From NCBI RefSeq assembly GCF_014643735.1, contig NZ_BMKA01000010.1, forward strand, positions 17,797 to 81,796: a stretch of 64,000 bases of DNA. Reading direction: 5' to 3'. This stretch comes from Neptunicoccus cionae (GTDB taxonomy: Bacteria > Pseudomonadota > Alphaproteobacteria > Rhodobacterales > Rhodobacteraceae). Under the pieces are notes generated by a model. That model did no database searches. It was not told where the DNA came from and saw nothing but the letters and a program-made list of their open reading frames with translations. A program made the translations under genes and the position numbers. Position 1 is the first letter of the stretch; the number at the start of each line of letters is the position of its first letter. Of this stretch, positions 7,067-60,306 are shown one piece after another.

Positions 7067-8121
7067 GTTGCGAATTTTCCCCTATCTTGCTGGAAAGCAA
7101 GGAGAATGAAAGATGGCGCATACTGAGCTAAACGTGCGTGAACGACGCAGGATCGAGGATATGCTGAATGCTAAGATGTCAGTCGGTGAAATTGCCGCTG
7201 ATATTGGCAGGCATAGATCCACCGTCTATCGCGAGATCAAGCGGAACTATTACCACGATGAAGAGATCCCGTATCTGAATGGGTATTACGGATTGAACGC
7301 GCAAGACTACGCAACGGATCGACGCGCGCGGCGGCGCAAGCTAGTGCGTTTGGATGAACTTCGAAAAGCCGTCATCACGCAGCTTAAAGAAGGATGGTCG
7401 CCCGAACAAATCGCAGGCCGCCTTAAATTTGAAGGTCAAACAATCCGTGTGAGCCATGAGACGATCTATGCCTACGTTTACGGCCCCGATGGCCAATCCA
7501 GAGAACTTGCCCGTTACCTGCCAAACCGCCGCAAGAAACGAAGGCCGCATCATTCGCGTAAGCCACGTGGCCTTGTGTTTCCACCGGATCGATCCATCCA
7601 TGAACGCCCAGACTACGTTGATGGCCGGGAGACGTTTGGCGAATGGGAAGGCGATCTGATGATCTTTGAACGCGCCCAAGGCAAAGCAAATGTTGCCTCT
7701 CTGGTAGAACGTAAGACCCGCTTTGCCGTCCTATTCCGCAACAACGACCGGAGCACGACGCACCTGATGAACCGGCTGATGAGCGTGATGGAACGCGTCC
7801 CCCAGCCCGCTCGCAAATCCATCACCTTTGATCGTGGGATTGAGTTCAGGAATTGGCGCAAACTGAAGCCAGGGATCGGAACGGAGGCTTGGTTCTGTGA
7901 TCCTCAAGCCCCGTGGCAAAAGGGTTCTGTTGAGAACCTGAACAAACGTGCGCGCCGTTACTTGCCACGCGATGCGCCTGTAGCCGCGTTCTCAGATCGA
8001 GATATGAAGTCGATCTGTGACCGCTTGAACGGCACCCCCAGAAAGTGTCTGGGATGGCGCACACCAACCGAAGCCTTCAGAGAAGAACTAATGAAACTGA
8101 GATAGCGGAAACCGTCGCAAC
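7067..8121 (+). mobile_element. IS30-family insertion sequence
   Basis: A roughly 1.05-kb element bounded by imperfect inverted repeats: GTTGCGAATTTTCCCCTATC at 7067-7086 on the left and, read on the other strand, GTTGCGACGGTTTCCGCTATC from 8121 to 8101 on the right. The shared blocks are GTTGCGA, TTTCC and CTATC. The right repeat overlaps the transposase stop codon, as in other IS30 members. A flanking target duplication is not obvious. It stands where the chromosomal-type operon gives way to accessory genes. Confidence 0.75.
7113..8105 (+). CDS. IS30-family transposase
   Basis: A 330-residue DDE transposase. The N-terminal helix-turn-helix includes LNVRERRRIEDML and IGRHRSTVYREIKRN (residues 25-45), followed by WSPEQIAGRLK and the catalytic core with GEWEGDLM near residue 174 and TFDRGIEF near residue 240. 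The last core block reads WQKGSVENLNKRARRYLPR, which is typical of IS30. GGAG at 7101-7104 precedes the ATG. It appears intact, so the element may be mobile. Confidence 0.93.
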   Translation: MAHTELNVRERRRIEDMLNAKMSVGEIAADIGRHRSTVYREIKRNYYHDEEIPYLNGYYGLNAQDYATDRRARRRKLVRLDELRKAVITQLKEGWSPEQIAGRLKFEGQTIRVSHETIYAYVYGPDGQSRELARYLPNRRKKRRPHHSRKPRGLVFPPDRSIHERPDYVDGRETFGEWEGDLMIFERAQGKANVASLVERKTRFAVLFRNNDRSTTHLMNRLMSVMERVPQPARKSITFDRGIEFRNWRKLKPGIGTEAWFCDPQAPWQKGSVENLNKRARRYLPRDAPVAAFSDRDMKSICDRLNGTPRKCLGWRTPTEAFREELMKLR

Positions 8122-8323
8122 GACACTTGAGTATCCAGCGGGTGCGCGCTACCCCCGACTGCGACTCTTGTTAGAAAACAAAAGGCGCAAGATAGAAGGT
8201 TGGCGGTACGCTGGGGTGCCGGTGAACGTGATGGCGCTCGACCATATTCCGCGAGTTCAAGCGCAATCCTTCTCCGATCCATGCATCCCGCTGGTCGAGG
8301 TGCCATAGAGTGTCACGCAGCAT

Positions 8324-9529
8324 CTATTGCGGCATCTCCCCCGAAATCCGTTTGAGTCCGGCAGCGCGGGGATCATAGTGATAGCCCGTTATTGTGCCGT
8401 CCCTGATCTTTTCGACAGCGTCGTTGATTACAAAGAGAGGAACGAGGAACCATTCTCGCGGGACCACAGGCCTTCCAAAGCGATCCATGATCTCGATCTC
8501 GAGCCGTGCAGGTTCGAAAATGCGGTGGATCAGGTTCTCCAACTTGGACCGATTGATGTTGTAGAGCTCGTATGTCGCGACCACCTCGACATTCGCCATC
8601 AGAAACGTCGGCTGCAACTGCGCGCCGGCGATCCGCTTCTCGACGCTCATATTGGTAACGCCGATCTTGTGCACCAGTTCCCGGTTTTCCGTGACGAGTG
8701 GATGATCGGATTTGCTGCGAAGCACATAAATGATCCCGCTCGCCTCATCACCATCGATTGTCTGGTCCGAAAAAAGTGGGCCTGCCGATGGGTCAGTGAT
8801 TCGGCGTCCCGCGCCGTCCTTGTTCAACGCGCGCTGGAGCGAGCGCATCAGCATGTTGCTCTCGGTGCCGTTGTCAAAAATCACCCGCAGACGAGCATCG
8901 GTACGACCTTGCTCATTCGTGATGGTCTCACCCTTTTCAGTAACATAGGCTTTCTGACCGCCGACGATGAAAAAGCGGCCCTTCTCAATCTCGGCTTTCA
9001 TCTCGAAAGGGCGGGTCTCCCGCAAACCGCTATCCAGTTCTTTCTGGACCATCTCGAACAATGGCTTGAACTTCGAAAAATCTTCGCATTTTTCGCGATT
9101 GGCGACCTCGTCGGCGGCCTTTTTCTCGGCTGTAGAGCGGACATGCTTCAATTCTGTGAGTGGTGACTTGGCTACTTCTACGCCCAACTCAGCGAGCAGG
9201 GCATCGTCTTCTAGATCTTCGGCGCCCGACGTTGAGGCCGCAAAGGTTTCTGCAAGAAGACCTTGCTCGTCCAGTGGGGCAAGGAGATCGCGGCACTCCT
9301 GCAAGTCGCGGATCCGATCAAGACGCACGGCGTAGAGGCGTTCAAAGATATCAAGATCCTCCCCGTGTTGGGGAGGCTGGCCATGCTCCTCTGCAAATCG
9401 CGAGATTCCCTCAAAACCTGCGACGATGCGTTCTTCGCGTGGTGTGCGGCTGAGCTGCTTCTTGACTTCGACCTCGACGCCAAGCTCAGCAAGGAGGGCA
9501 TCATCTTCGTCGGTGAAACTCTTAGCCAT
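8324..9529 (-). CDS. GIY-YIG nuclease-domain protein of the defence-like operon
   Basis: A 401-residue protein with a C-terminal GIY-YIG (T5orf172/MUG113-like) endonuclease fold: GIIY at residues 265-268, HKIG at 287-290, R299, a glutamate in the LENLIH helix near 331 and the closing REWF at 358-361. The N-terminal half has no recognised catalytic domain. It contains the 12-residue sequence DDALLAELGVEV twice, at residues 9-20 and 108-119. The start overlaps the end of the helicase gene by 8 bp, so the two are probably coupled and may act as a helicase-nuclease pair. It would be the likely DNA-cutting component of the cluster (inference). Confidence 0.8.
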   Translation of the reverse strand: MAKSFTDEDDALLAELGVEVEVKKQLSRTPREERIVAGFEGISRFAEEHGQPPQHGEDLDIFERLYAVRLDRIRDLQECRDLLAPLDEQGLLAETFAASTSGAEDLEDDALLAELGVEVAKSPLTELKHVRSTAEKKAADEVANREKCEDFSKFKPLFEMVQKELDSGLRETRPFEMKAEIEKGRFFIVGGQKAYVTEKGETITNEQGRTDARLRVIFDNGTESNMLMRSLQRALNKDGAGRRITDPSAGPLFSDQTIDGDEASGIIYVLRSKSDHPLVTENRELVHKIGVTNMSVEKRIAGAQLQPTFLMANVEVVATYELYNINRSKLENLIHRIFEPARLEIEIMDRFGRPVVPREWFLVPLFVINDAVEKIRDGTITGYHYDPRAAGLKRISGEMPQ

Positions 9530-11570
9530 TGGCAGCTTCCTGCTTCATGCGCGCGAGATAAGCCACACCTTCGGCCATTTTCTTTTCCCACGGGTCCGGT
9601 GAAGTAATCGACGGCAGGCGGCCTCGCTCTTGCTTGAACTTGACGGCTCGCTTCGCAAGATCGCGCGCCTCATCCGGTGACAGTTGCACTTTTTTCGCCG
9701 AGATGACGGCCTGGACCTGCCGAAGGCTTTCCTCGCTCATAGTCTTTGCCAGAATCGAGTAGGCTTCGCCGAACGGGTTGATGCGATCAATCAGGTCGAT
9801 GTCGAGTTCGCGCACGTCCATTGCGAATTTGCGCACCCCGTCGATCAAGGCGGTATTGCCGGTTGTTTCTGTGTCATCGCGGTTCGACAGCGCGATCTCT
9901 TTTGCCTTTTGGGTCAGGTTCAGCGCAGCAACTGCGTGTTGGCGCACCGCTTCCTGATCCTCTGCATCTAGCTCTGGGAACCTAGCACCGACAATCTTGC
10001 CCATGCGGACCTGCGTCAGTTCCTCCGGCACCAGCTCTTCGTCGAAGAGACCCCGTTCGATCGTAGTCTTGTCCTGAACGAAAGCTGTGATGACCTCATT
10101 GAGGTCCTCTTGGCAGATGCGCTTGGCTTCCTTGCTCTTGGGTTCGACCAGGCCTTTGATTTCGATCTGGAACTGCCCGCTGGCCTCGTCGAAGCCGACG
10201 TTTTCCTTGTTGGGATCATAGCCGCCCTCACCGTAATCAAACCCTTCGACAGGGCCACTTTTCACGGTCTTGGGTGTGAAGTTGAAACGCGGGGCCAGCA
10301 CCTGTTCCATCAGCAGGCTCGCTGCGATCGCTTTCAGTGTATCGTTGACTGCCTCGGTCACGGCTTCGGCCGCGGCGTCGGGCTCCGCGATAAGGTTGGT
10401 GAAGCGCGCGCGCATCTTGCCCTCGGCATCGCGGGTGGCACGGCCGATGATCTGCACGATCTCCGTCAGGCTGGCGCGATAACCCACCGTCAGGGCGTGT
10501 TCGCACCAGATCCAGTCAAACCCTTCTTTCGCCATCCCGAGGGCGATGATGATGTCGACATGGTCGCGGTTGTTCTTATGCGCAGGGTCCTTCAGTGCGT
10601 TGGACACCTTGTCCCGCTTGGCCGGTTCATCATCGACCAGATCGGCGATGCGCAGCACCCGCTCCTCGGGCGTCTTGACCAGCTGAAAGCCTGTGATGGG
10701 ATCCGCTCCCTGCCAATCGCCCAGGGCGTCAATGATATGCTCGACCTCGCGATGCTTGTCCTTGGTGCTTTCGCGCGAGTTCACGTTCGGGATGTGAAGG
10801 ATCGTCTTCTCGGTCGGATCCAAAACCTTGAGAATGTCGTCCGCATAGGACCCGGAATAGAAGAAATAACCGATGTCAAGCGTCTTGAGGTATTTGTAGC
10901 CATTCAATTGCTGATAGTAGGTATAGGTGAAGGTATCGAACTTTGCCTCATCTTCGGGCGACAGAACGGCTTCGGCATCGCCGCGGAAATAGGACCCGGT
11001 CATCGCAACCAGATGCACCTTGTCGCGCGCGACAAGGGCGCCCAGATGCGTGCCCAGCTTATTATCAGGGTTGGCAGAGACGTGGTGAAACTCGTCTACC
11101 GCGATGAGCCGATCGTCAAACGCTTCAATCCCGAACTTGTCCACGGCGAACCGAAAGGTCGCGTGGGTGCAGACCAGAACCTTGTCGTCGCTCGCCAAGA
11201 ACTTGCCGACAGCGCCCACTTTGCCATCATCCCCGCCGGGAGCGTTGCACAGGTTCCATCGCGGTTGCACGGTCCAGTCTGCCCAGAAGCCGTACTTGCT
11301 CAGTGGCTCGTCGTTGAAGCTGGACCCGATGGATTTTTCTGGCACCACGACGATGGCCTGACGCAGGCCCTGGTTGTATAGCTTGTCGAGTGCTATGAAC
11401 ATGAGCGCGCGGCTTTTGCCAGATGCCGGCGGCGACTTGATCAGCAGGTATTGCTCGCCCCGCTTCTCATAGGCACCCTCTTGCATTTCGCGCATGCCAA
11501 GCTCGTTCGATTTGGTCGAGCTTCCATTGGCCGCGTAATTGACAGAGACGGAAGGAACTTGCTTTGTCAT
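9522..11570 (-). CDS. SF2 DEAD/DEAH-type helicase of the defence-like operon
   Basis: A 682-residue ATP-dependent helicase or translocase. Motif I is SPPASGKS at residues 46-53, motif II reads DEFHH near 158, and motif VI is QIIGRATRD near 373, giving the two RecA-like lobes of superfamily 2 in restriction-type order. The C-terminal 250 residues are helical with no recognised domain. Ribosome site AGGA lies before the ATG. It is separated from the upstream AlbA_2 gene by 175 bp containing an 18-bp direct repeat and may therefore have its own promoter. Its first 37 residues are mirrored in the mini-ORF at 13215-13364. Confidence 0.85.
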   Translation of the reverse strand: MTKQVPSVSVNYAANGSSTKSNELGMREMQEGAYEKRGEQYLLIKSPPASGKSRALMFIALDKLYNQGLRQAIVVVPEKSIGSSFNDEPLSKYGFWADWTVQPRWNLCNAPGGDDGKVGAVGKFLASDDKVLVCTHATFRFAVDKFGIEAFDDRLIAVDEFHHVSANPDNKLGTHLGALVARDKVHLVAMTGSYFRGDAEAVLSPEDEAKFDTFTYTYYQQLNGYKYLKTLDIGYFFYSGSYADDILKVLDPTEKTILHIPNVNSRESTKDKHREVEHIIDALGDWQGADPITGFQLVKTPEERVLRIADLVDDEPAKRDKVSNALKDPAHKNNRDHVDIIIALGMAKEGFDWIWCEHALTVGYRASLTEIVQIIGRATRDAEGKMRARFTNLIAEPDAAAEAVTEAVNDTLKAIAASLLMEQVLAPRFNFTPKTVKSGPVEGFDYGEGGYDPNKENVGFDEASGQFQIEIKGLVEPKSKEAKRICQEDLNEVITAFVQDKTTIERGLFDEELVPEELTQVRMGKIVGARFPELDAEDQEAVRQHAVAALNLTQKAKEIALSNRDDTETTGNTALIDGVRKFAMDVRELDIDLIDRINPFGEAYSILAKTMSEESLRQVQAVISAKKVQLSPDEARDLAKRAVKFKQERGRLPSITSPDPWEKKMAEGVAYLARMKQEAANG

Positions 11571-11616
11571 GATGTTTTCCTTCTGAGGGGCGCAGAATCA
11601 TTCGCTTTAGGGCAGG

Positions 11617-11733
11617 CAATCAAAACCCGATCAAGTAGCGATACCGCACCACGCCTATCGTAACAGTATGATTTATATGTATTTTCCAATTTACGCCCTC
11701 TAGCCCACATACGCACAATCAAAACCCGATCAA
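11617..11733. repeat. Pair of 18-bp direct repeats in the helicase leader
   Basis: The sequence CAATCAAAACCCGATCAA occurs perfectly at 11617-11634 and again at 11716-11733, a period of 99 bp. Both copies lie in the 175-bp gap between the AlbA_2 gene and the helicase gene, with an AT-rich promoter-like stretch between them. This arrangement suits an operator bound by a regulator, or a footprint of recombination. Confidence 0.7.
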
Positions 11734-11745
11734 ATGTTATCCCTG

Positions 11746-13218
11746 TCACGCCCATGAGGGGACATAGCCAGCACGAGGGCGTTCAGCATCCGCAGGACGG
11801 ATCAGACCAGCATCCAGCGTTGCGCGAATAACCCGCGACGCCTGCGCAGCGTTCTGGTCGTCGATGCCGAGCCGCTCCCGAAGTGTCGCGTTCGTCATCT
11901 TCTGACCGCCTACGTATTTGAGCGCGGCATGTTGGTAACACGCTCGCACGGCTTCTTCCGGTGTCATGTCCGCAAAGCGGCGTGGTGCAAACAGAACCAC
12001 GCGCACGGCGTCTCCCTCCATGCGGAAATCCGGTGGGGGCAACTGGTGTAGCTCAACCGCCGAGATCACCTTGTCGATGCCGGTGCCTTGTTCTTCGCAA
12101 AGTTTCATGCGCCGCATCAAGGAAGCAAGAGCTTCATTTCGGGAACGCGGGGGCGAGTCCAAAAACCGGTCGGGGCTAACCAAGGGGGCGCCCGGGTTCG
12201 TGATCTCCATGCGATCGCTGAATAACTCGATGAGTGGACCGGCACCGGTGATCGTCATGTCCTGGTGGATCAATGCGTTGGCGATCAATTCGCGGATCGC
12301 TATCGACGGGTAGAGCGGACGCTCCTCGCGGAATGCTTTACCAATCAATTCGTTGCGGGGCAGAAGGCCGTCGATGTAATCCACCAGCCCCTGAAATCCC
12401 GCTGCATAGCCGCGCTGGCCGTCCTGGCGGTGGCTCACGTCATCTGCACGTCCGGTGCCAGCATAGGCCACGAAACGAACCCCTTTGCGCTCTACAGAGG
12501 GGCCGAAATCGGAAAGTTTCTTGGCATACAGGATTGCGCCCAGATTGGTAATGTTCCAGCGGTCGCTTACATCTTTCTGGATCAGACGATCTGCCAATAG
12601 CTTGTCGAAGATCCCCTGCCTGTTATCCGGCAAGGGCTGGCCCGTAAGATCGAAGTAGTTGGCGTAATTCAGCCGCGCAAGAACGTCGTCGCCGGACAGG
12701 AACTGCGCCGCGACGCCTGTCTCCCAAGCGTAGGGCTGCAACTTGCTCCAGAGGGCACGCAGGCGTTCCGGATGGTCGGACAGGCGCGGCGTGGCACTGC
12801 CGATGCGCAAATAGGCGGTCCGGTCAAACTCTACCGGAGCGGTTGCGGCGGCGGGGATAGTCAGCAGGATCAGGCGCTGCCCGTCATGATCGACCTCTTC
12901 GAACCGGAACTCGATGCCCGGCTGGAGGTGGTTGGCCACCCACAGTTCGAGCGGCTGCCCCTTCTCCTTTTTCACGGTCGGCTCGAAACTCGTGCCGACA
13001 ACCGCATGATCGCCGTCTCGCACCCCCCAGACCACATAGGCATAGTGCTGATCGGCCAGCCGTGCAGCATTGGACAAGGCAGAGATCAGCTTGCCGATCA
13101 ACGGCCCGTCGGCATTGTTTTCCTTGAACTCGATCCATGTGGTTTCCGCTGGTTTGGCACGCAGATCGTCCACCAACCTGCGGGTGCGTTCCGCGCTCAT
13201 GACAGGGTCAAGGGTCAT
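11746..13218 (-). CDS. AlbA_2 / RecG-like ATP-binding protein
   Basis: A 490-residue protein with an N-terminal Schlafen-type AlbA_2 domain (TTWIEFKENNADGPLIGK, then ALSNAARLADQHYAYVVWGV, residues 25-75) and a central GHKL-like ATP-binding region with AIRELIANALIHQD near residue 300. The C-terminus is a winged-helix-like segment with NATLRERLG. Such proteins are usually annotated as transcriptional regulators or RecG-related ATPases and recur in phage-defence neighbourhoods. The ATG at 13218 overlaps the stop of the mini-ORF (ATGA). It could sense DNA ends or act as regulator of the operon; the role is inferred. Confidence 0.8.
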   Translation of the reverse strand: MTLDPVMSAERTRRLVDDLRAKPAETTWIEFKENNADGPLIGKLISALSNAARLADQHYAYVVWGVRDGDHAVVGTSFEPTVKKEKGQPLELWVANHLQPGIEFRFEEVDHDGQRLILLTIPAAATAPVEFDRTAYLRIGSATPRLSDHPERLRALWSKLQPYAWETGVAAQFLSGDDVLARLNYANYFDLTGQPLPDNRQGIFDKLLADRLIQKDVSDRWNITNLGAILYAKKLSDFGPSVERKGVRFVAYAGTGRADDVSHRQDGQRGYAAGFQGLVDYIDGLLPRNELIGKAFREERPLYPSIAIRELIANALIHQDMTITGAGPLIELFSDRMEITNPGAPLVSPDRFLDSPPRSRNEALASLMRRMKLCEEQGTGIDKVISAVELHQLPPPDFRMEGDAVRVVLFAPRRFADMTPEEAVRACYQHAALKYVGGQKMTNATLRERLGIDDQNAAQASRVIRATLDAGLIRPADAERPRAGYVPSWA

Positions 13219-13364
13219 AGTGTGTCCACTTTCTGACCCACCACGCCTGGGTAGCGTTTGTCGTAGGGGCATTCCTGTATTGCTCGCCGGCCCAGGTCGT
13301 TCGGCTTGGCCGGGCTACCGTTGGTGGCATAAATAATCGAAATGGAGGGAAAACCTTTGATCAT
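13215..13364 (-). pseudogene. 49-codon mini-ORF duplicating the helicase N-terminus
   Basis: A 49-residue reading frame beginning MIKGFPSISIIYATNG and ending GQKVDTL. Its first 37 residues align without gaps to the first 37 of the helicase at 11570, with 20 identities that include YA-NGS, LG, QE and Y-KR. The remainder differs. Its ATG overlaps the stop of the 294-aa gene and its TGA overlaps the AlbA_2 start, so it fills the gap with coupled ATGA junctions. It is most simply the stump of a helicase gene disrupted when the AlbA_2 gene arrived, but a functional small peptide cannot be excluded. Confidence 0.7.
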
Positions 13365-14245
13365 TGACCTCTCACCCGCTTATCAAAACGTCTTAAAAAT
13401 ATGCGGGCTGTGATCAGGATTATTTGAAACCGAAAAGCACAATCTTCTTCATCTGACAGGCCCGGATGGCTGCCGTGCGGATGCAATCTTGCCCACAACC
13501 CCAATACGTACGCAGGTTTGCCTCTGTCGTTCTCCCACTCATTGTATTCGTGAAGTAGGAACGGTCCCGATTTTGTATCTGCAAGATATTGCCTCTTTGC
13601 GTCATCGCTAACCTTAGGATCACATCCAAAATACTCCGCAATTTTGTCCAGCAGTTCCTGATAGAAATCTCTGATCATCGCGTTGGCGGAAGACCAGTTC
13701 CCTTGCGAAAAGTTCTGAATCGCTTGATCCAAATGCCCCTTGGCGGCGCCCAACCCGTGCCGACCAAGTAAGGCCTCAATTTCGCTGGTCGCCTCTCGAA
13801 AATCTGTCTCAGGTACATCCTCAGGCAGCATCCGCCTGAGAACAGTCTGTGTAATGACCCTTGGAGCGTCATCGAAAATGGAAGATCTGCCCATTGGGTC
13901 TGGAACCTCCTCTTCCACAAGTGTGAAGCCATCCATTTTCAGACCAGCAAGAAGACGCAACCAGACATCTGGCTTGTTGCGCTTGCTTTGCTCGGATGCC
14001 GTAATTGCATGCTCAATCATGGCTCTGCTTAGGTCACAGTTTCCGTTGACCGTCGGAACAGAACGTCCCCCCATACTGCTTCTTGCGAACCGAACCATTT
14101 CAATGGCCTTCGATGCTACCGATCCAGAACCACAGAATTCGTCAACACCCCACCCTAGGGTGAGAGACGAGAAAGCGGTTTGTGTCGACATTTCAGCAAT
14201 CATCTCGCCCGCTGCCATCAACGTCATGCTGTTAAAGTCGCTCAT
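13361..14245 (-). CDS. Unknown 294-aa protein between methyltransferase and AlbA_2 gene
   Basis: I do not recognise a named family. The protein is soluble and mostly helical. It has a glycine/serine-rich segment (FCGSGSVASKAIEM) near residue 38 and a conserved-looking C-terminal helix FRFQIILITARIFLRRFDKR reminiscent of the end of Abi-like and HEPN-type proteins, though no RxxxxH motif is seen. Both ends are ATGA overlaps with neighbours, so it is made in step with the methyltransferase. It is probably a structural or regulatory subunit of the same system. Confidence 0.7.
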   Translation of the reverse strand: MSDFNSMTLMAAGEMIAEMSTQTAFSSLTLGWGVDEFCGSGSVASKAIEMVRFARSSMGGRSVPTVNGNCDLSRAMIEHAITASEQSKRNKPDVWLRLLAGLKMDGFTLVEEEVPDPMGRSSIFDDAPRVITQTVLRRMLPEDVPETDFREATSEIEALLGRHGLGAAKGHLDQAIQNFSQGNWSSANAMIRDFYQELLDKIAEYFGCDPKVSDDAKRQYLADTKSGPFLLHEYNEWENDRGKPAYVLGLWARLHPHGSHPGLSDEEDCAFRFQIILITARIFLRRFDKRVRGQ

Positions 14246-16965
14246 GCGCTCACCTTCGTCGTCATCTTCGTGTACATCTCGAACAGTTTTTCCAGCCGTT
14301 CGGTGTCGTTGCGGAAACGGCGGCCGATGTAGATGCGTTCCAGCACCTCGTCGTTGTGGTCATGCGCTGCGCGGAGGTTGGCGGGCATTTTTTCGGGGTC
14401 GTAGAGGTCGGCGATGGTGGCGGGGAAATGCGCCTCGCGGGCCAGAAGGATACCTTCGGCCGCCGCTGTCAGGTCGGCGCGGTTCTTTTCGGTCAGTTTC
14501 GGGACGGGGAAGGTGTTCCAGCCCATGGTGTTAGAGTAGCGATATCGAGTTTCCAGCTTCCCGCAAACCGTGGCGATCCAGACCAGATGCAGGCGCGAGG
14601 CGATCAGCGCCATGTTCCAGAGCGGGGCATCGTATAATGCGAGAGCGAGATTGGATACGCGAACGTCACTGGGCATCAAGCCACACGGCAGGTATTCTCG
14701 ACGTTCAGAGGATACGCTTGGAACGACGATGGAATTTACTTCTCCAATGATTGTTCGCTCGAACTTGTACGGCGTCAGCAAGCCCGCTTTGCCGCGCTCG
14801 CTCCCACCCTGTCGGTAGATTCGAATGCGCTCCAAACGTTCCGCAATCGGAGGTATTGAGAATGCAAGTTCTGCTTGGTGATCTTCAATCCAAAGACAAT
14901 ATCTTTGTTGCCCATTGATGAACTCGCTCGATCCTACAATTGGCTTCACGAGAGGAGATGCCTGAGGGAAACCTTCCAAGAGATCGTTCGCTTCGTCAGG
15001 CGACAGTAACAGGTTGCCCTGATCCCGCGGTATGTTGCCGCCGAACATTGTCGCTATCTCTGCAATTGGTTCAGAGGCACGTTCAACAATAATATTGGCC
15101 CCTTCGGTGAGGTATGCATTTATGGCTTCGACTGACTTCATGAAGTCAGCTCCATAAATAGCTTTGGACCGTTCACCAACAGCGGCGATCCCAACGATCA
15201 CACAGGTGACCTGAGCATTCTTGCTCGCATTATTGCCCCAAAGAAAGTTCTGATGTCCGAAAAATATTTCTTGTCCGTTCTGAAAAATTCGGGGCCAGAT
15301 CAACGGAACTTGGACACCTTGGCAAATCGAGTTTGTAGAAACAAACGCGAAACAGCCGCCATACTTGATGAAGTCCGATGCCTTCCAGAACCAACCCGCG
15401 ATGTAGTCAATTGCACGTACTTTTTTGTTTCCTGGTAGCAGCGCGTTCAGATCGTCCTTTTGCTCCTTGGTCTGATATTTGTCGCCGACATAAGGCGGGT
15501 TTCCGCAAACATACGTCTCGCCTCCTTCATTCGCGAAATCGATCTGCGCCTGATCCAGCGGCGACATGAACAAGTCATCCGCTTGAAACTTCACCCCCGT
15601 CCCCGTGGGCGGGCAGACCGACAGCCAGTCCAGCCGCAGGGCGTTGCCACAGGTGATCCAGTTCTGCGCGTCTAGCGGCAGGAACTCGGCCAACGCCTCT
15701 TTCTGGCCGCGATAGGTCACGTCGCATTGATATTCCGCGATGATCAGCGCCAGCCGCGCGATCTCGGCCGAGAAGTCGCGTAGTTCGATCCCGCGATAGT
15801 TGGTCAGGGGAATGTCGGTGCGGCGCAGCGGCTCGCCCCGGCGCTTGTTGATCTCATACTCGATCGCGCGCATTTCCTTGTAGGCGATCACAAGGAAGTT
15901 GCCCGACCCGCAGGCGGGGTCGAACACGCGGATCTTGGCCATGCGGGCGCGCAGATTGGCCAGCTTGCGGGCGTTGTCGCCCGCCGCCTCCAGTTCTGCC
16001 CGCAGATCATCTAGGAAGAGCGGGTTCAGCACCTTCAGAATGTTCGGCACGGACGTGTAGTGCATGCCGAGGACCGAGCGTTCCACCTCATCCGCGACGG
16101 CCTGGATCATCGAGCCGAAAATATCGGGGTTGATCTGTGTCCAGTCGAGGCTGCCGATATGGGACAGGTAGCGCTGCGCGATCTTGGAAAAGCGCGGCAC
16201 ATCGGTGCTGCCCGAGAAGAGGCCACCGTTCACATAGGGAAAGGTGTCGGCCCAGCGGGGCAGCTTGGCCTCGGCCCGTTTGGGGATGGCGGTGTTCATC
16301 GCACGGAAGATCTCGCCGATGACTTCGTGCGTGTTCGACCCGTCGCGGTTCGCCATCTGGTCGATGGTGGCGGTGAACAGGTTGTCGCTGACGAAGATGT
16401 CGGTGTCTTCGGCGAAGAAGCAGAAGATCAGCCGCGCCATGAAATGGTTCATGTCGTGGCGTTTTTCGGCGCTGCCCCAGTCGGGGTTGTCCTTGATCAG
16501 CTCGACATAGAGCCGGTTGAGGCGGCTGGTGGCGCGGATGTCAAACGCACTTTCGCGGATCTGCTTGACGGTAGAGATGCCGGCGAGCGGCAGGAAGAAG
16601 CCGAAGTGATCGGGGAAATCGGTGTAGCGGCAGGCGATGGTCTCGCCGGTGGTGATGTCCTCGGCCTCGAGGTCGATGCCGTCAGTGGCGAGGATGAACT
16701 TCGCCTTGGCGCGGGAGGTGGCAGGGCTTTCGCGCAGGGCGGCGAGGGTTGCCGCGATTTCGCCCGGGACGCAGGTCGCAAGGTGGATGTTGTTGGTCTG
16801 CAGGACGCCGCCGATGTCGGACTTGTTCGATGCGCCGGTGCGCAGGCGCTTGATTGTCGTCTCCTTGTTTCCGAAGGCCATGAGGAAGGCATAGGGGAAC
16901 TCTGCCGCATCAAAGGGCTGCTCGGCGAGTTCGGAAACGGCTTGTTCAATCTCAACGGCGTTCAT
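14242..16965 (-). CDS. Large class I DNA methyltransferase (MmeI/YeeA-like)
   Basis: A 907-residue N6-adenine-type DNA methyltransferase. The SAM-binding motif DPACGSGNF lies near residue 348 and the catalytic NPPY near residue 485, in the order used by gamma-class type IIG and YeeA-like enzymes. A target-recognition-like domain follows, and the C-terminus is helical (AAHDHNDEVLERIY). The N-terminal 180 residues sit where MmeI carries its nuclease; a segment KAKFILATDG is present but a complete PD-(D/E)XK set is not evident. The ATG at 16965 overlaps the vapC stop as ATGA. With a helicase and GIY-YIG protein downstream, methylation probably protects host DNA (inference). Confidence 0.88.
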   Translation of the reverse strand: MNAVEIEQAVSELAEQPFDAAEFPYAFLMAFGNKETTIKRLRTGASNKSDIGGVLQTNNIHLATCVPGEIAATLAALRESPATSRAKAKFILATDGIDLEAEDITTGETIACRYTDFPDHFGFFLPLAGISTVKQIRESAFDIRATSRLNRLYVELIKDNPDWGSAEKRHDMNHFMARLIFCFFAEDTDIFVSDNLFTATIDQMANRDGSNTHEVIGEIFRAMNTAIPKRAEAKLPRWADTFPYVNGGLFSGSTDVPRFSKIAQRYLSHIGSLDWTQINPDIFGSMIQAVADEVERSVLGMHYTSVPNILKVLNPLFLDDLRAELEAAGDNARKLANLRARMAKIRVFDPACGSGNFLVIAYKEMRAIEYEINKRRGEPLRRTDIPLTNYRGIELRDFSAEIARLALIIAEYQCDVTYRGQKEALAEFLPLDAQNWITCGNALRLDWLSVCPPTGTGVKFQADDLFMSPLDQAQIDFANEGGETYVCGNPPYVGDKYQTKEQKDDLNALLPGNKKVRAIDYIAGWFWKASDFIKYGGCFAFVSTNSICQGVQVPLIWPRIFQNGQEIFFGHQNFLWGNNASKNAQVTCVIVGIAAVGERSKAIYGADFMKSVEAINAYLTEGANIIVERASEPIAEIATMFGGNIPRDQGNLLLSPDEANDLLEGFPQASPLVKPIVGSSEFINGQQRYCLWIEDHQAELAFSIPPIAERLERIRIYRQGGSERGKAGLLTPYKFERTIIGEVNSIVVPSVSSERREYLPCGLMPSDVRVSNLALALYDAPLWNMALIASRLHLVWIATVCGKLETRYRYSNTMGWNTFPVPKLTEKNRADLTAAAEGILLAREAHFPATIADLYDPEKMPANLRAAHDHNDEVLERIYIGRRFRNDTERLEKLFEMYTKMTTKVSA

Positions 16966-17384
16966 GCGGTAGTCCAGGGGTTGATCAGGTCGATCTCGCA
17001 ACCCTCGAAGTCAGGCGTGTTGCGCGTGGCGACGGAGGCACCACGGGTGTGGGCAATTGAGGCAATCTGGCAATCGGCCTGGGTGATCGGTCGCCCGGCG
17101 GACCGTCGTGCGGCGGAGATGGCGGCATAGGACTGCGCGGCGGCGCTGTCGAAAGGCAGAATGCGCCCCGCAAGGTCCTCACGCAGGATGCTGTCCACTG
17201 CATCAACCAGCGCGGCGCGCCGCTTGCCGTTCCCCATGATCGCGAGGCCGTAGCGCAGTTCCGCTTCCGATATCGAGGTCAGGTAGACGTTGAGCCCGTC
17301 CTGCGCCGACAGCCATTGCTCGACCCTCGGCTCGGGAGCCGGGCGCAACAGCTCAGAGAGGACATTCGTGTCGAGGATGATCAT
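16962..17384 (-). CDS. vapC: VapC/FitB-type PIN toxin
   Basis: A 140-residue PIN-domain ribonuclease. It begins MIILDTNVLSELL with the first catalytic aspartate at residue 5, has SEAELRYG near residue 40, and QADCQIASIA near residue 101 with a further acidic residue. This is the FitB/VapC type used with ribbon-helix-helix antitoxins. The antitoxin gene lies immediately upstream (3-bp gap), and the TGA overlaps the methyltransferase ATG. The toxin would cleave RNA when the antitoxin is lost. Direct coupling to a methyltransferase is unusual. Confidence 0.88.
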   Translation of the reverse strand: MIILDTNVLSELLRPAPEPRVEQWLSAQDGLNVYLTSISEAELRYGLAIMGNGKRRAALVDAVDSILREDLAGRILPFDSAAAQSYAAISAARRSAGRPITQADCQIASIAHTRGASVATRNTPDFEGCEIDLINPWTTA

Positions 17385-17387
17385 GCG

Positions 17388-17636
17388 TCAGGCCTGGTCG
17401 AACGCGGGCGGTTCACGCATGGCTTCACGCTGCGGAAGGTCGAGATCAACGCCACCCAGAGGCGCGACCCGCTCGCGGATGGCCGCGGCAAGATCGTGGG
17501 ATGGCTTCGCTTCGCCGACAACATGGCGCAAGATCTCGCGCGCCTCCTCTTCCATCGAACGGCCGTGCTCAGCCGCACGGATGCGAAGGCGGCGCTTCAC
17601 GTCATCGTCAAGGTTCCGGATGGTAATGCTTGCCAT
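17388..17636 (-). CDS. vapB: FitA/VapB-type ribbon-helix-helix antitoxin
   Basis: An 82-residue DNA-binding antitoxin. The N-terminus ASITIRNLDDDVKRRLRIRAAEHGRSMEEEAREIL is a typical FitA ribbon-helix-helix, and the acidic/proline-rich tail would wrap the toxin. A very strong ribosome site (AGGAGGAG on the - strand) precedes the ATG. The promoter upstream holds a short palindrome likely bound by this protein for autorepression. Confidence 0.88.
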   Translation of the reverse strand: MASITIRNLDDDVKRRLRIRAAEHGRSMEEEAREILRHVVGEAKPSHDLAAAIRERVAPLGGVDLDLPQREAMREPPAFDQA

Positions 17637-17653
17637 GATCTCCTCCTGATAGG

Positions 17654-17682
17654 AGTGTAATCATCGCAATCAATGCGATCAA
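17654..17682 (-). promoter_or_regulatory. Promoter and operator of the vapBC-methyltransferase operon
   Basis: On the - strand TTGATC (17682-17677) and TACACT (17659-17654) are separated by 17 bp, a good sigma70-type layout. The palindrome ATCGCA-ATCAA-TGCGAT (17663-17679) fills the spacer, so a bound antitoxin would block polymerase. Because the genes that follow are overlapping, this may be the main promoter for at least five of them. Confidence 0.55.
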
Positions 17683-17782
17683 GGCTAATCGCTGGAACGC
17701 ATGGTTTCCTCAGGGTGGGCAAGCCGACGCTGTCAGCTCGCGATCTTGCTGATCACCGCAACTGTTATACGCATCATCAATG

Positions 17783-17811
17783 TTGCAATAGTATATTTTC
17801 GTATGTATGCT
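17783..17811 (+). promoter_or_regulatory. Predicted promoter of the first T4SS-side gene
   Basis: TTGCAA (17783-17788) and TATGCT (17806-17811) are spaced by 17 bp containing TAGTATATTTTCG. The layout and the TAGTAT core resemble the predicted promoters at 19848 and, on the other strand, at 43246. Confidence 0.5.
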
Positions 17812-17838
17812 GGGTGAAGATTGTCAAGGGTCCTTGCC

Positions 17839-18594
17839 ATGCGTTTCGAATTCAAAAACCTCGCTCTGGCGGCCTTTTTAGCTCTCGCCTTGTCCGGCCC
17901 AACAGTTCCCACGCAAGCCCGCGCCCAAACCTATCCGATCGACTGCGCCATCTTGCTGTGTTTGTCCGGTGGCTGGCCGGCTTCTGTGCCATGCGCACGC
18001 GCGCGGGCCGAGTTCATCCGGCGCATCACACCTTGGCCGGTGGAGCCGCCGCTTCAGATTTGGCGCTGCCCCATGGGTGCGTCTTACGATGGTCCTGCCA
18101 GGTCGCGCCCCACGGACCGGATCTTCGATGCCCTATATGGTGGTTCAGGAACCCCACCAAACTCTTCAACCCCGCTTTTTGATCAGGCAGCCGAGGCAGG
18201 CGGAATGCTCGGGCTGAAAGGCTCCAACGCGGCTTGGGACAACCTCGTAAGGGCTGATTACGCCCTCCAGCTCGTAGAAGACCGCGCCGACATCGATATC
18301 AGCGGGCCGGAATTCAATTTCGTGCGCTCTATTCGCGTCTTTGACGTTCGTTATGCTCGCCAGCACGAATCCGGGCGAGATGGCGACTGCAACCGCAGTG
18401 CCGTCGTTGTCCTCGGCACCTACGGGATCCAGGGCGATTTTTCCTGGAGGGCGTCGTCACCCGCAGCGCTGCCTGCTGCGCATGCCGGTCTCGAGCGATG
18501 GGGCGAGCACTGTCCGAGCATTTATCACAGATCCGTCTTCGCGGAGTGGCGTGACTATAGCGGGAATTACGGCTTCGAGCAGGTCAATTACTGA
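17839..18594 (+). CDS. Exported protein of unknown function at the head of the T4SS region
   Basis: A 251-residue protein with a Sec signal (FKNLALAAFLALALSG, cleavage near ARA-QT). The mature part has several cysteines, including PIDCAILLC and IWRCPMG, which could form disulfides in the periplasm. The ATG at 17839 has AAGGG 8 nt upstream; an upstream TTG at 17821 is less likely. No known domain is recognised. Location ahead of virB genes suggests an accessory conjugation role. Confidence 0.72.
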   Translation: MRFEFKNLALAAFLALALSGPTVPTQARAQTYPIDCAILLCLSGGWPASVPCARARAEFIRRITPWPVEPPLQIWRCPMGASYDGPARSRPTDRIFDALYGGSGTPPNSSTPLFDQAAEAGGMLGLKGSNAAWDNLVRADYALQLVEDRADIDISGPEFNFVRSIRVFDVRYARQHESGRDGDCNRSAVVVLGTYGIQGDFSWRASSPAALPAAHAGLERWGEHCPSIYHRSVFAEWRDYSGNYGFEQVNY

Positions 18595-18696
18595 CTGTTG
18601 AGGCGCCGCGACGTCGCACAGAGCCTTGTAAAGATTAAACCTGTAACGCAGGCACAAGCACACAATCGACGGCCATAAAGGCCATAGTCTTCCATG

Positions 18697-18921
18697 TCAG
18701 TCGTCGCGACAGGGCAGCTGCGTGAGAGACGCGAAGTCGATTTCAGCTTTATCGGCATCGCTAAGATCCGGGTAAATCCTTGAGACGCGCTGTGGGCCAT
18801 GCATGTCCCACCGGATTGCCAGAGCACCTGTGTTCCAGCGATATACCCAGCCGACAATGGTTTTTTCATCGGCTGCGATCAAATTGGCGATCGCGACGCC
18901 TTCACCGTTATCATCGTTCAC
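18697..18921 (-). CDS. Small conserved-looking protein, 74 aa
   Basis: A 74-residue acidic protein starting at a GTG, with AGGAAG 10 nt upstream on the - strand. It contains VGWVYRWNTGALAIRWD and no signal peptide or known domain. It lies between the exported protein and the XRE regulator, opposite in strand to the T4SS. The ribosome site and protein-like composition support a real gene, but function is unknown. Confidence 0.55.
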   Translation of the reverse strand: MNDDNGEGVAIANLIAADEKTIVGWVYRWNTGALAIRWDMHGPQRVSRIYPDLSDADKAEIDFASLTQLPCRDD

Positions 18922-19089
18922 TGTTTACTGACTTCCTGCACTGTGGCGCTTAATTTGCGGCATGGTGTCATAAGGCGCTCACTTGCGCCGCAGGCCGCAC
19001 ATGGTGGATGTTGGCTAACTGCTATTCCTTGAGGAAGCTGATCTCACGAGGGCACACCCCAAAGCGGTACTCCTCAAAATGCATTGTTC

Positions 19090-34244: not shown

Positions 34245-34473
34245 GCCTCGATTCAGTCCAAGAGAGGCGGTCGAGGCGTCACCGCCTCGGTATGTATCAA
34301 TGGCCCCCCGATCACAGGGTCAGAGGCTGCGCCTTCGGCTTCTGATCGAACAGAATCACACGCCGCATGAGCCATGCGGCAGGAGATCGGATCCGACTTT
34401 TTTGACAGAAGCGTTGACGCTTTGAACCGAGTATTAAATATTGAAACAAATAACGAACGAGCCGCAACCGAGC

Positions 34474-35907
34474 ATGCCCAAGAACATCCTAATATTTTCC
34501 GACGGGACCGGCCAAGTCGGTGGGCTACGACCCGACCAGCGACTATCGAACGTTTACAAGATGTATCGCGCGATGCGTCCCGGACCATCTTCGCCAATCG
34601 ACCCGAAAGAACAGGTCTGTTTCTATTCCGCCGGTCTCGGTGCGGGTGAGGTTGGGGGCTTAACGCTCCGGCGGATTAGGAACATCCTGTCGGCGGCGGT
34701 TGGGACCGGGATCGACGAAAACGTAATCGATTGCTACGAGAAGATCATCTCCTACTACGAGCCCGGTGACCATATCCTTCTCTTCGGATTTTCGAGAGGC
34801 GCCTACACCGTCCGTGCCGTTGCCAACGTGATGAACCTCTGCGGTGTCCCGACAAGGATGCCGGACGGATCGCCGGTTCCGCGCTTCGGACCGCGGCTGA
34901 GGAAGATCGCCAGCGATGCCGTGAATTTCGTCTACAACCATGGAAATGGCTACCCACGCGGGCAGAAGCCCTATTACGAAAGGCGTGAAGAGCTGGGTCG
35001 GCGGTTCCGGCAGAAGTACGAAAGTTTCGTGCCGGATGCGGACGAGGACGTCCAAGGCAACGTCCAGCCGACGTTCATCGGCGTTTTCGACACAGTCGCC
35101 GCACTTGGAAACGCGCAGGTAAGCCTGCTGGCTGGCGTCGTCGCCTTTACGCTCTTTGCCGCGTTCGGTGCGGCACTTTGGTTCTCTTGGCCCTGGTACG
35201 TCTGGCTTCCCCTTCTCGGCTTCCTTGGTCTCATCGGATTCTGGTATGCGAAGCTGAAGTGGTCGCAGTGGAAGTACTTCTCACCGGACGAGACGAAGCC
35301 ACTCAGACTGACCCGTCTCGCCGACTGGCCTGCGATCTGGAAACACGGCCACTACGCTAAGTGGAGTCTTGAAAACTATGACCAGTGGCTCGATTCCGAT
35401 GTCGGCCACGCCCGTCATGCCCTAGCGATAGACGAGCATCGCAAGAACTTTCCCCGCGTGAAATGGGCAATGGCGGCTGAAGCTAGGAAGACCGAAGGCC
35501 GTGACCCACCTTGGTTGAAGCAAGTCTGGTTCGCTGGCTGCCACAGTGACGTTGGCGGCAGCTATCCCGAACCAGAGTCCCGTCTCAGCGACATCGCGCT
35601 CAGCTGGATGCTTGAAGAACTGAAAGCATGCGTGCCTGATGTCCAAATCAACGATAACAAGATCTACGTCATGTCCGATCCGAGGGGCATGCAGCACGAG
35701 GAAACATTCATGTTCGCGTACGGTCCGATCCGGCGGCGGTGGCCGGTTGCGCCGCGCGTAGTAAGCGCCGCTTTCCAGCTCCATCCATCGGTCTTCGAGC
35801 GCCTTGAAGCTGGGCCGGTTTCACACGTAGGAGAGATGCGACCTTACAGACCCGAGCAACTCCGTGACCATCCCTCTACGAAGTCTTACTTCGATGATGG
35901 AGAGTGA
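34474..35907 (+). CDS. DUF2235 alpha/beta hydrolase with membrane segments
   Basis: A 477-residue protein of the DUF2235 family, which includes T6SS phospholipase effectors of the Tle1 type. The opening NILIFSDGTGQ and the nucleophile elbow GFSRGA near residue 107 mark the hydrolase; HSDVGGSYPE near residue 357 carries the probable catalytic histidine/aspartate area. Two membrane helices (residues about 215-256) interrupt the domain. The ATG at 34474 is used; a TTG at 34441 is an alternative. No T6SS genes are near, so a toxin or defence-effector role is possible but inferred. Confidence 0.8.
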   Translation: MPKNILIFSDGTGQVGGLRPDQRLSNVYKMYRAMRPGPSSPIDPKEQVCFYSAGLGAGEVGGLTLRRIRNILSAAVGTGIDENVIDCYEKIISYYEPGDHILLFGFSRGAYTVRAVANVMNLCGVPTRMPDGSPVPRFGPRLRKIASDAVNFVYNHGNGYPRGQKPYYERREELGRRFRQKYESFVPDADEDVQGNVQPTFIGVFDTVAALGNAQVSLLAGVVAFTLFAAFGAALWFSWPWYVWLPLLGFLGLIGFWYAKLKWSQWKYFSPDETKPLRLTRLADWPAIWKHGHYAKWSLENYDQWLDSDVGHARHALAIDEHRKNFPRVKWAMAAEARKTEGRDPPWLKQVWFAGCHSDVGGSYPEPESRLSDIALSWMLEELKACVPDVQINDNKIYVMSDPRGMQHEETFMFAYGPIRRRWPVAPRVVSAAFQLHPSVFERLEAGPVSHVGEMRPYRPEQLRDHPSTKSYFDDGE

Positions 35908-60227: not shown

Positions 60228-60260
60228 GGGGTTTGTCCTTTGGATCAGGGTCTGAGTTCC

Positions 60261-60306
60261 AAAAGACAAAAAGCCCCCTCTACACTTTGTAAGAGCAGAG
60301 AGGGCT
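60261..60306 (-). terminator. Terminator or attenuator ahead of the helicase-methyltransferase gene
   Basis: On the - strand the arms AGCCCTCTCT and AGAGGGGGCT pair and are followed by TTTTTGTCTTTT (60271-60261). It lies after the DUF6927-like gene and 34 bp before the large gene, so it either ends the first transcript or attenuates the second. Confidence 0.6.

Follow-up and report, generated by a model that had tools for sequence, protein, structure and literature searches.

A putative plasmid restriction operon of the DnmA-YeeB-YeeC type with an exchange slot between its methyltransferase and helicase-nuclease halves

In a 64,000-nt stretch of Neptunicoccus cionae DNA (the window, whose numbering is used for the operon coordinates below), the minus strand from 17636 down to 8324 carries an operon that we interpret, with a probability of about three in four, as a plasmid restriction-modification (RM) operon of the DnmA/YeeB/YeeC type with an exchange slot between its two halves. 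A toxin-antitoxin pair is followed by a DNA methyltransferase gene, a first slot gene encoding a 294-aa protein (P294), a mini-open reading frame (mini-ORF), a second slot gene encoding an AlbA_2 protein, a helicase gene and a GIY-YIG nuclease gene. The initial annotation had taken these genes for an unclassified composite defence system, whereas the arrangement of methyltransferase, helicase and nuclease is already published as DnmA-YeeB-YeeC. What is new relative to this known core is the exchange slot, together with the insertion scars and an AlbA_2-linked element; no description of the exchange slot was found in the open-licence literature searched. By analogy with the published relatives, the operon would function in defence.

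The methyltransferase (907 aa, 14242..16965, on the minus strand like all genes of the operon) is a DnmA-like member of the MmeI family. The MmeI_N, MmeI_hel, MmeI_Mtase, MmeI_TRD and MmeI_C families all scored above the Pfam cut-off, and the PADLOC type IIG model PDLC03598 (REase_MTase_IIG) gave 961 bits. The N-terminal nuclease motif is missing: alignment with MmeI (5hr4) starts only at residue 85, and no PD-ExK-like pattern is common to the N-termini of 71 methyltransferases (that of the window and 70 relatives), a loose form occurring in 6 of the 71. The helicase (682 aa, 9522..11570) is a YeeB-like SF2 protein with weak Pfam scores, both under the cut-off (DEAD 21.6 and ResIII 21.1 bits), and with the sequences PPASGKS, DEFH, TGSYFRGD and GRATRD, which we take to be the helicase motifs and which vary little or not at all among 23 sequences (that of the window and those of 22 relatives). 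Its matches in phage records were limited to two short partial ones. The YeeC-like GIY-YIG nuclease (401 aa, 8324..9529) matched T5orf172 and MUG113 (Pfam E 1.4e-11 and 9.4e-16) and has G265, Y268, G290, R299 and E331, presumably the catalytic positions, in a set of which 74 of 75 sequences keep them. The calls for the methyltransferase, AlbA_2, PIN and T5orf172 were above the curated Pfam cut-offs, and searches of solved structures gave no relative of the helicase, the GIY-YIG protein or P294.

Relatives were collected by a helicase profile search, which found at least 557, and the best-scoring 80 were retrieved together with as much as 10 kb of flanking DNA on either side; the proportions given here are therefore valid for close relatives only. 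The GIY-YIG gene follows the helicase in all 80 loci and the methyltransferase precedes it in 77. The order was likewise conserved in 23/23 loci of a second set (full-length helicase match), which partly overlaps the 80 and was counted apart. These counts bear out the initial annotation in treating the methyltransferase, helicase and nuclease as one conserved restriction-like unit. An MmeI-family methyltransferase devoid of the PD-ExK motif, with an SF2 helicase gene and then a T5orf172/GIY-YIG gene downstream, is what defines DnmA-YeeB-YeeC, and by its families and order the core is a restriction system of this already known kind. In three Bacillota loci (L104, L111 and L119) the helicases show 78-79% identity.

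Family searches of the operon proteins also agreed with the annotation that the operon is not BREX, DISARM or type I restriction. For BREX, the NCBIfam PglX models gave 23-24 bits against cut-offs of 400-900, and neither PglZ nor BrxC was among the operon proteins scanned. For DISARM, DrmMI reached 88.5 bits against 961 for REase_MTase_IIG, again with no DrmB or DrmC among the proteins scanned. For type I RM, there was no match to a specificity subunit and ResIII on the helicase fell under its cut-off; N6_Mtase scored 21.6 bits on the methyltransferase (cut-off 20.4), while MmeI_Mtase scored 370 bits. A single-chain MmeI enzyme of type IIL was rejected too, as the PD-ExK nuclease region has no alignment here.

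The exchange slot became apparent from the distance between the methyltransferase and helicase genes. This was measured in 77 loci, three (L058, L102 and L113) being dropped because the contig ends before the methyltransferase, and falls into two classes, -4 to 10 bp (30/77) and 411-3655 bp (47/77), with none between. In the second set, seven gaps were < 150 bp, one was 273 bp and 15 were at least 300 bp. The helicase-nuclease junction, an internal control, measured at most 55 bp in 79/80 loci and 263 bp in the remaining one. In 33 of the 47 filled loci the start of an ORF of at least 100 aa overlaps the methyltransferase stop by 4 bp, and the cargo is therefore part of the operon; the gaps in L040, L042 and L060 have no ORF of at least 50 aa on the plus strand. 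On a quick tree of the helicases, in which 25 of 74 inner branches are open, the empty and filled states require a minimum of 18 changes (well-supported branches force 11 of these), and the 25 cargo states need 42. The labels are slightly clustered on this tree (18 changes for empty against a shuffled mean of 24.0).

Pairs of loci locate the edges of the exchange. L056 and L059 share a 3.4-kb match that ends at the methyltransferase stop codon and a 5.0-kb match that starts at the remnant of a helicase start described below; the cargo between them is unrelated, being a 138-aa gene in L056 and P294 in L059. Four more pairs, L062/L063, L121/L122, L088/L091 and L098/L108, likewise retain matching flanks while the cargo differs. 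The methyltransferase tail was shorter in filled than in empty loci (median 11 versus 17 aa; 47 versus 29 loci, one empty locus dropped; p 0.002, a value that ignores kinship), which fits cassette edges. Comparison of these loci shows that the junction between methyltransferase and helicase is a slot in which whole genes are gained, lost and swapped. In the same four pairs, the stretch encoding the target-recognition domain (TRD) had no nucleotide match, or a weak one in part; since this mismatch is between close relatives, target specificity seems to be exchanged separately from the slot cargo.

The mini-ORF (49 aa, 13215..13364) preserves a trace of this history. Its first ~37 codons (13364-13254) resemble the start of the adjacent helicase (54% identity over 35 aa, E 8e-9), a similarity also picked up by a separate search in genome G001, and then run into the AlbA_2 leader. 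The L056 counterpart shares 95% identity with the start of the helicase in L031, where AlbA_2 is absent. The L056/L031 match runs unbroken through the end of the methyltransferase gene, the 138-aa gene and the opening codons of the helicase, and resumes at the true helicase start; identity is 94.9% in the left part and 86.6% in the right, so the two halves have different histories. In L180 the remnant comes after a HEPN gene, and in the window, L056 and L180 the helicase-like stretch stops at the same codon (~37), with one and the same AlbA_2 leader behind it. We conclude from these alignments that the mini-ORF represents a fossil helicase 5´ end. L123 (Cognatishimia), of which L039 is a near-identical copy, has 14/30 residues of its own helicase start between its first cargo gene and a gene of the 138-aa family, in a stretch that opens with an ATG immediately after that first cargo gene; by this resemblance it is a second fossil, independent of AlbA_2, in another lineage and with other cargo. 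A short stretch in L080, MRPVTVVPPVSVN, seen by eye only, may be a third. L101 and L133 have AlbA_2 and no fossil. The simplest order of events would be a single insertion of AlbA_2 at the helicase start, after which the first cargo was exchanged.

The mini-ORF could instead encode a small protein with a function of its own, such as a decoy or regulator of the helicase. In all six sequences that we translated it is open and flanked by an ATGA overlap at either end, and the ratio of nonsynonymous to synonymous polymorphism (pN/pS; five sequences of the window lineage, pooled pairs) is below 1. This ratio, 0.69, is nevertheless well above the 0.06-0.17 of its neighbours, so the mini-ORF evolves faster than they do, with few sites and pairs that are not independent: we obtained 0.061 for the helicase, 0.075 for AlbA_2, 0.125 for the toxin and 0.165 for P294. 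The mini-ORF also ends short of the helicase Walker A motif, and related stretches vary, with 54 to 95% identity to helicase starts and still shorter versions in L123 and L080. We consider a functional small protein improbable and retain the fossil interpretation.

Cargo was assigned via ORFs and blast clusters; pooling the filled loci of the two sets with six named plasmids gave 115 ORFs in 37 clusters. Twelve of 20 cargo representatives were above the Pfam cut-off, the families being CcdA, CcdB, BrnT, DUF6088 with AbiEii (one pair), zeta toxin and RhuM as well as YhcG/DUF1016, DUF559, GmrSD_N, PDDEXK_4 and DarT. The RhuM and YhcG cargo also match PADLOC PDC families, PDC presumably standing for phage-defence candidate. 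A HEPN protein occupies the slot on L180, and AlbA_2 and P294 are additional cargo families. Judging by these matches, the cargo appears defence- or toxin-like for most recognisable members, not all.

The first slot gene of the window (13361..14245), of no assigned family, encodes P294, which had no significant Pfam, PADLOC or NCBIfam match. Homologues occupy the same slot in L057, L059, L063, L078 and L130, and distant homologues were found on six other plasmids that we read, without core genes in the stretch fetched. Homologues L144, L145, L149, L146 and L147 are from Rhizobium, Agrobacterium, Xanthobacter and Bradyrhizobium plasmids and are covered by no family model; their neighbours on those plasmids are a queC-like gene with an XRE regulator, ScpB or an AbiE pair. 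The HEPN motif is R-x4-6-H, and R253-x6-H260 is invariant in five P294 sequences, two of which are 98% identical. A structural model from five sequences (pLDDT 74, pTM 0.57) had HEPN chains (1o3u, 3o10) recurring among its Foldseek rows, all of them insignificant. P294 might be a HEPN-like growth-arrest protein, a guess that we would give perhaps one chance in three.

The second slot gene (490 aa, 11746..13218) encodes a protein with SLFN_AlbA_2 and HATPase_c_4 domains (Pfam E 4.6e-15 and 6.5e-25), whose sole match in the solved-structure search was the uncharacterised 3lmm. Behind it, in the spacer before the helicase, lies an operator-like element (11619..11733, minus strand) in which TTGATCGGGTTTTGAT occurs twice (11733-11718 and 11634-11619). 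Each copy is a pair of direct repeats with 11-bp spacing, and the copies start 99 bp apart. A loose form of the pattern had 28 matches across the 3.70 Mb of loci, with both strands included, 25 of them in the AlbA_2-helicase spacer; many of these loci are near-copies, and the distinct lineages are the window group, L080, L101 (one copy only) and L133. In the 4.4-Mb genome G001, allowing one mismatch, there were only two matches, both in this spacer. AlbA_2 homologues on other plasmids (L181 and L182, 80-81% identity) retain the two copies at a distance of 98-99 bp; conservation does not extend to the sequence that separates the copies. The repeat pairs look as a binding site of AlbA_2 would be expected to look, and they could also control the helicase. 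We set aside an RNA reading of the spacer: Rfam gave none at E up to 0.1 (7900-18000), seven spacers folded one by one gave differing structures, and the inter-repeat stretch is unconserved. A viral contig (L201, IMGVR_UViG_3300027782_000184) carries the repeat pair in two exact copies at a spacing of 98 bp, in a fetched stretch that begins downstream of where an AlbA_2 gene would lie.

We also asked about tandem repeats behind AlbA_2/HATPase_c_4 genes in general. Repeats of 10-12 bp placed 11 of 32 distinct loci in the top 5% of their own controls, against ~1.6 by chance; of these 11, five belong to close relatives of the window gene, and L093/L105 and L167/L175 are kin pairs. The window group fails this test (0.19 for the G001 copy and 0.17 for L056) because its repeat is short, and the general pattern is only suggestive. 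Directly behind the AlbA_2-like stop codon in L093, L105 and L185 there are runs of 10-11-bp tandem repeats of a sequence other than that of the window.

The operon is headed by a toxin-antitoxin pair, as the initial annotation had noted. A FitA-like ribbon-helix-helix (RHH) antitoxin (82 aa, 17388..17636; Pfam FitA-like_RHH E 2.9e-21) stands directly before a FitB/VapC-type PIN-domain toxin (140 aa, 16962..17384; PIN E 1.1e-14), whose closest solved structure is FitB (2h1c, E 1.7e-28), which identifies the pair as FitAB/VapBC. The association proved occasional when upstream genes were read in 69 loci (70 include the methyltransferase start, one of these at a contig edge): FitB is directly upstream of the methyltransferase in only six. 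In seven loci the representative of the upstream ORF is weakly RHH (under the cut-off), and in another seven it is HTH_3. A DNA-binding antitoxin-like module thus recurs upstream, with the toxin present only occasionally.

The genes are tightly packed, and the layout described in the annotation was confirmed. The antitoxin and toxin genes are separated by 3 bp, the methyltransferase ATG at 16965 overlaps the toxin end by ATGA, and ATGA overlaps also join methyltransferase to P294, P294 to mini-ORF and mini-ORF to AlbA_2. The 175 bp between AlbA_2 and the helicase is the sole sizeable gap, and the helicase and GIY-YIG genes overlap by 8 bp. The claim of one predicted promoter carries no weight, as two sigma-70-like sites were found in 12 kb where 5.0 are expected by chance. 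Six named Roseobacteraceae plasmids share the gene set in identical order, so the layout is not due to chance and the genes do co-occur outside this strain; the mini-ORF is annotated on four of the six and is an open reading frame on the other two. Such overlaps and the shared layout could suggest an integrated eight-gene defence machine that requires AlbA_2, P294 and FitAB, in line with the annotation, which had counted all of these as core parts. Yet each is missing from most relatives: FitB is upstream in 6/69 loci, and AlbA_2 is in the slot in 8/77 and P294 in 5/77. P294 occurs without AlbA_2 in L063, L078 and L130, AlbA_2 occurs without P294 in L056, L080, L093, L101, L105 and L133, and homologues of both are found elsewhere with no core genes in the stretch fetched. 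An obligate eight-gene machine is therefore very improbable, and we favour a conserved three-gene core with exchangeable cargo.

Window positions 7800-19000 are 99.9% identical over 96% to plasmid pSMR1-7 of Pseudosulfitobacter pseudonitzschiae, and conjugation genes for a VirB4-type protein, a coupling protein and a relaxase lie elsewhere in the window; the window is therefore plasmid DNA of marine Roseobacteraceae. An IS30-family transposase gene (7113-8105, plus strand) separates the operon from a TetR gene. On pSMR1-7 no transposase is annotated between the GIY-YIG gene and the TetR gene that comes after it, and the IS30 copy in the window is therefore probably a recent insertion. Elsewhere, the window encodes a 488-aa ORF with a Tle1-like phospholipase effector domain (34441-35907, plus strand; E 9.1e-64) and a 1438-aa ORF with AAA_34 and Strawberry-notch helicase C-terminal domains (55953-60269, minus strand).

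What is published on the core is divided. For B. subtilis DnmA-YeeB-YeeC, PMC7261158 reports that a Type I-like system has been suggested and that dnmA is without effect on plasmid uptake. The gene order is reported as conserved in PMC9973331, which also points to nearby uncharacterised genes that could belong to the cluster as well; both Morgan 2009 and Makarova 2011 are cited for the cluster in PMC7261158 / PMC9973331. According to PMC9973331, deletion of dnmA and yeeB homologues in Vibrio crassostreae made cells more sensitive to some phage subclades. Taken with the B. subtilis reports, the core is therefore known, and a defence role is reported in one organism and not found in the other.

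Several points weigh against our interpretation. Single deletions in B. subtilis dnmA-yeeB-yeeC left the plating of three phages unchanged (PMC9973331), and the authors call the cluster a relic (PMC9973331 and PMC7261158). The DnmA-YeeB-YeeC assignment was made by protein families and gene order. Two Pearl River plasmids have the helicase cut short and the GIY-YIG gene gone from the stretch fetched, so the methyltransferase can persist alone. Eight of the 20 cargo representatives have no above-cut-off family (two below, PLD/NgoFVII and T5orf172, and six with none), and for the P294 fold Foldseek returned no row with E < 1. Fossils were seen in few two-cargo loci, with none in L078, L091, L098 or L130 at E up to 0.05. 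Finally, the repeat pairs stand behind AlbA_2 in L181 and L182, where the DNA fetched contains neither a methyltransferase nor a helicase gene, and since they are present without a following helicase, their first duty may be to AlbA_2 itself.

The published negative results and the loss of the helicase-nuclease half from two plasmids that keep the methyltransferase would suit a relic, in which the restriction half is inactive, the operon is kept for gene regulation by the methyltransferase or for FitAB addiction, and the slot genes are passengers. The low pN/pS of helicase and AlbA_2 in the window lineage, the helicase motifs kept across 23 sequences, the GIY-YIG residues conserved in 74/75 and the V. 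crassostreae phenotype described in PMC9973331 all argue otherwise, and we regard a relic as unlikely. The Pearl River Pseudosulfitobacter plasmids (L180, 9646-10302, and L183), read from 30 plasmids listed with 98.2% identical AlbA_2, keep FitAB, methyltransferase, HEPN and AlbA_2 while the restriction half has decayed; this locus appears to be an orphan methyltransferase in the making.

For a working restriction operon with an exchange slot, homology and the published relatives suggest that the MmeI-like protein would recognise and methylate its own site, and that the helicase and GIY-YIG nuclease would form a separate restriction half acting on unmodified DNA, which means that the one-chain content of MmeI would be split over three genes. 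Cargo would most simply be swapped by recombination in which the end of the methyltransferase gene and the start of the helicase gene serve as homology arms. A second cargo entering beside the helicase could leave part of the old helicase start between the cargo genes; here ~37 of its codons persist in the mini-ORF, which links P294 and AlbA_2 translation through the ATGA overlaps. The first cargo (P294, the 138-aa protein or HEPN) would later have been exchanged against a constant fossil-AlbA_2 module. AlbA_2 would have brought the two direct-repeat pairs, probably binds them, and could give the helicase-nuclease half its own control. FitAB would be one of several antitoxin-like DNA-binding modules, probably providing a regulated promoter and possibly plasmid retention. 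The cargo would most simply be second-line defences, growth-arresting or DNA-targeting, like PrrC in a type I locus. A broader and more tentative view, to which we give somewhat less than even odds, is that the DnmA-type junction is a general port for second-line genes, with AlbA_2 as a local controller gating the restriction half via its repeats. Cargo would then recombine through fixed homology arms, leaving fossil helicase starts when stacked, and AlbA_2 would separate the timing of restriction from that of methylation.

These results recast a seemingly new system as a known one whose unusual feature is a measurable exchange slot within a restriction operon, marked by cassettes with sharp boundaries, by scars of insertion and by cargo families that recur. 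Such a slot is worth searching for defence genes still to be characterised, for which P294, the 138-aa family and two further cargo clusters (5 and 7) are candidates. Two questions become testable: whether restriction loci as a rule carry back-up immune genes exchanged via shared flanks, and whether AlbA_2/HATPase_c_4 proteins act as local DNA-binding controllers.

Among known systems, DnmA-YeeB-YeeC shares with the operon an MmeI-like methyltransferase without a nuclease motif, an SF2 helicase and a T5orf172/GIY-YIG protein in the same order and on the same strand. The operon differs in having FitAB in front, two slot cargo genes, a fossil helicase start and an operator-like element, and in lying on a Roseobacteraceae-type plasmid. 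A member of the cluster would be expected to place m6A at a non-palindromic site. MmeI (type IIL, 5hr4) has the same methyltransferase, TRD, spacer and C-terminal domains but carries its nuclease in its own chain, in a region without alignment in the methyltransferase here. Controller (C) proteins of type II RM systems are DNA-binding controllers, and the likeness is that repeats and the gene of a protein presumed to bind DNA lie immediately before a restriction gene; C proteins are small helix-turn-helix proteins, whereas AlbA_2 is larger and has an ATPase-like domain, its DNA binding being presumed. Accessory growth-arrest or AlbA_2-type genes inside a restriction operon are also known from type I loci. 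The rlo and mlo genes are embedded in Campylobacter type I restriction loci, and one AlbA_2 homologue carries the annotation MloB. PrrC sits in the type I locus ecoprrI, according to PMC12707154. Compared with such type I loci, the core enzymes of the operon differ, and the edges of cargo exchange and the insertion scars are visible here.

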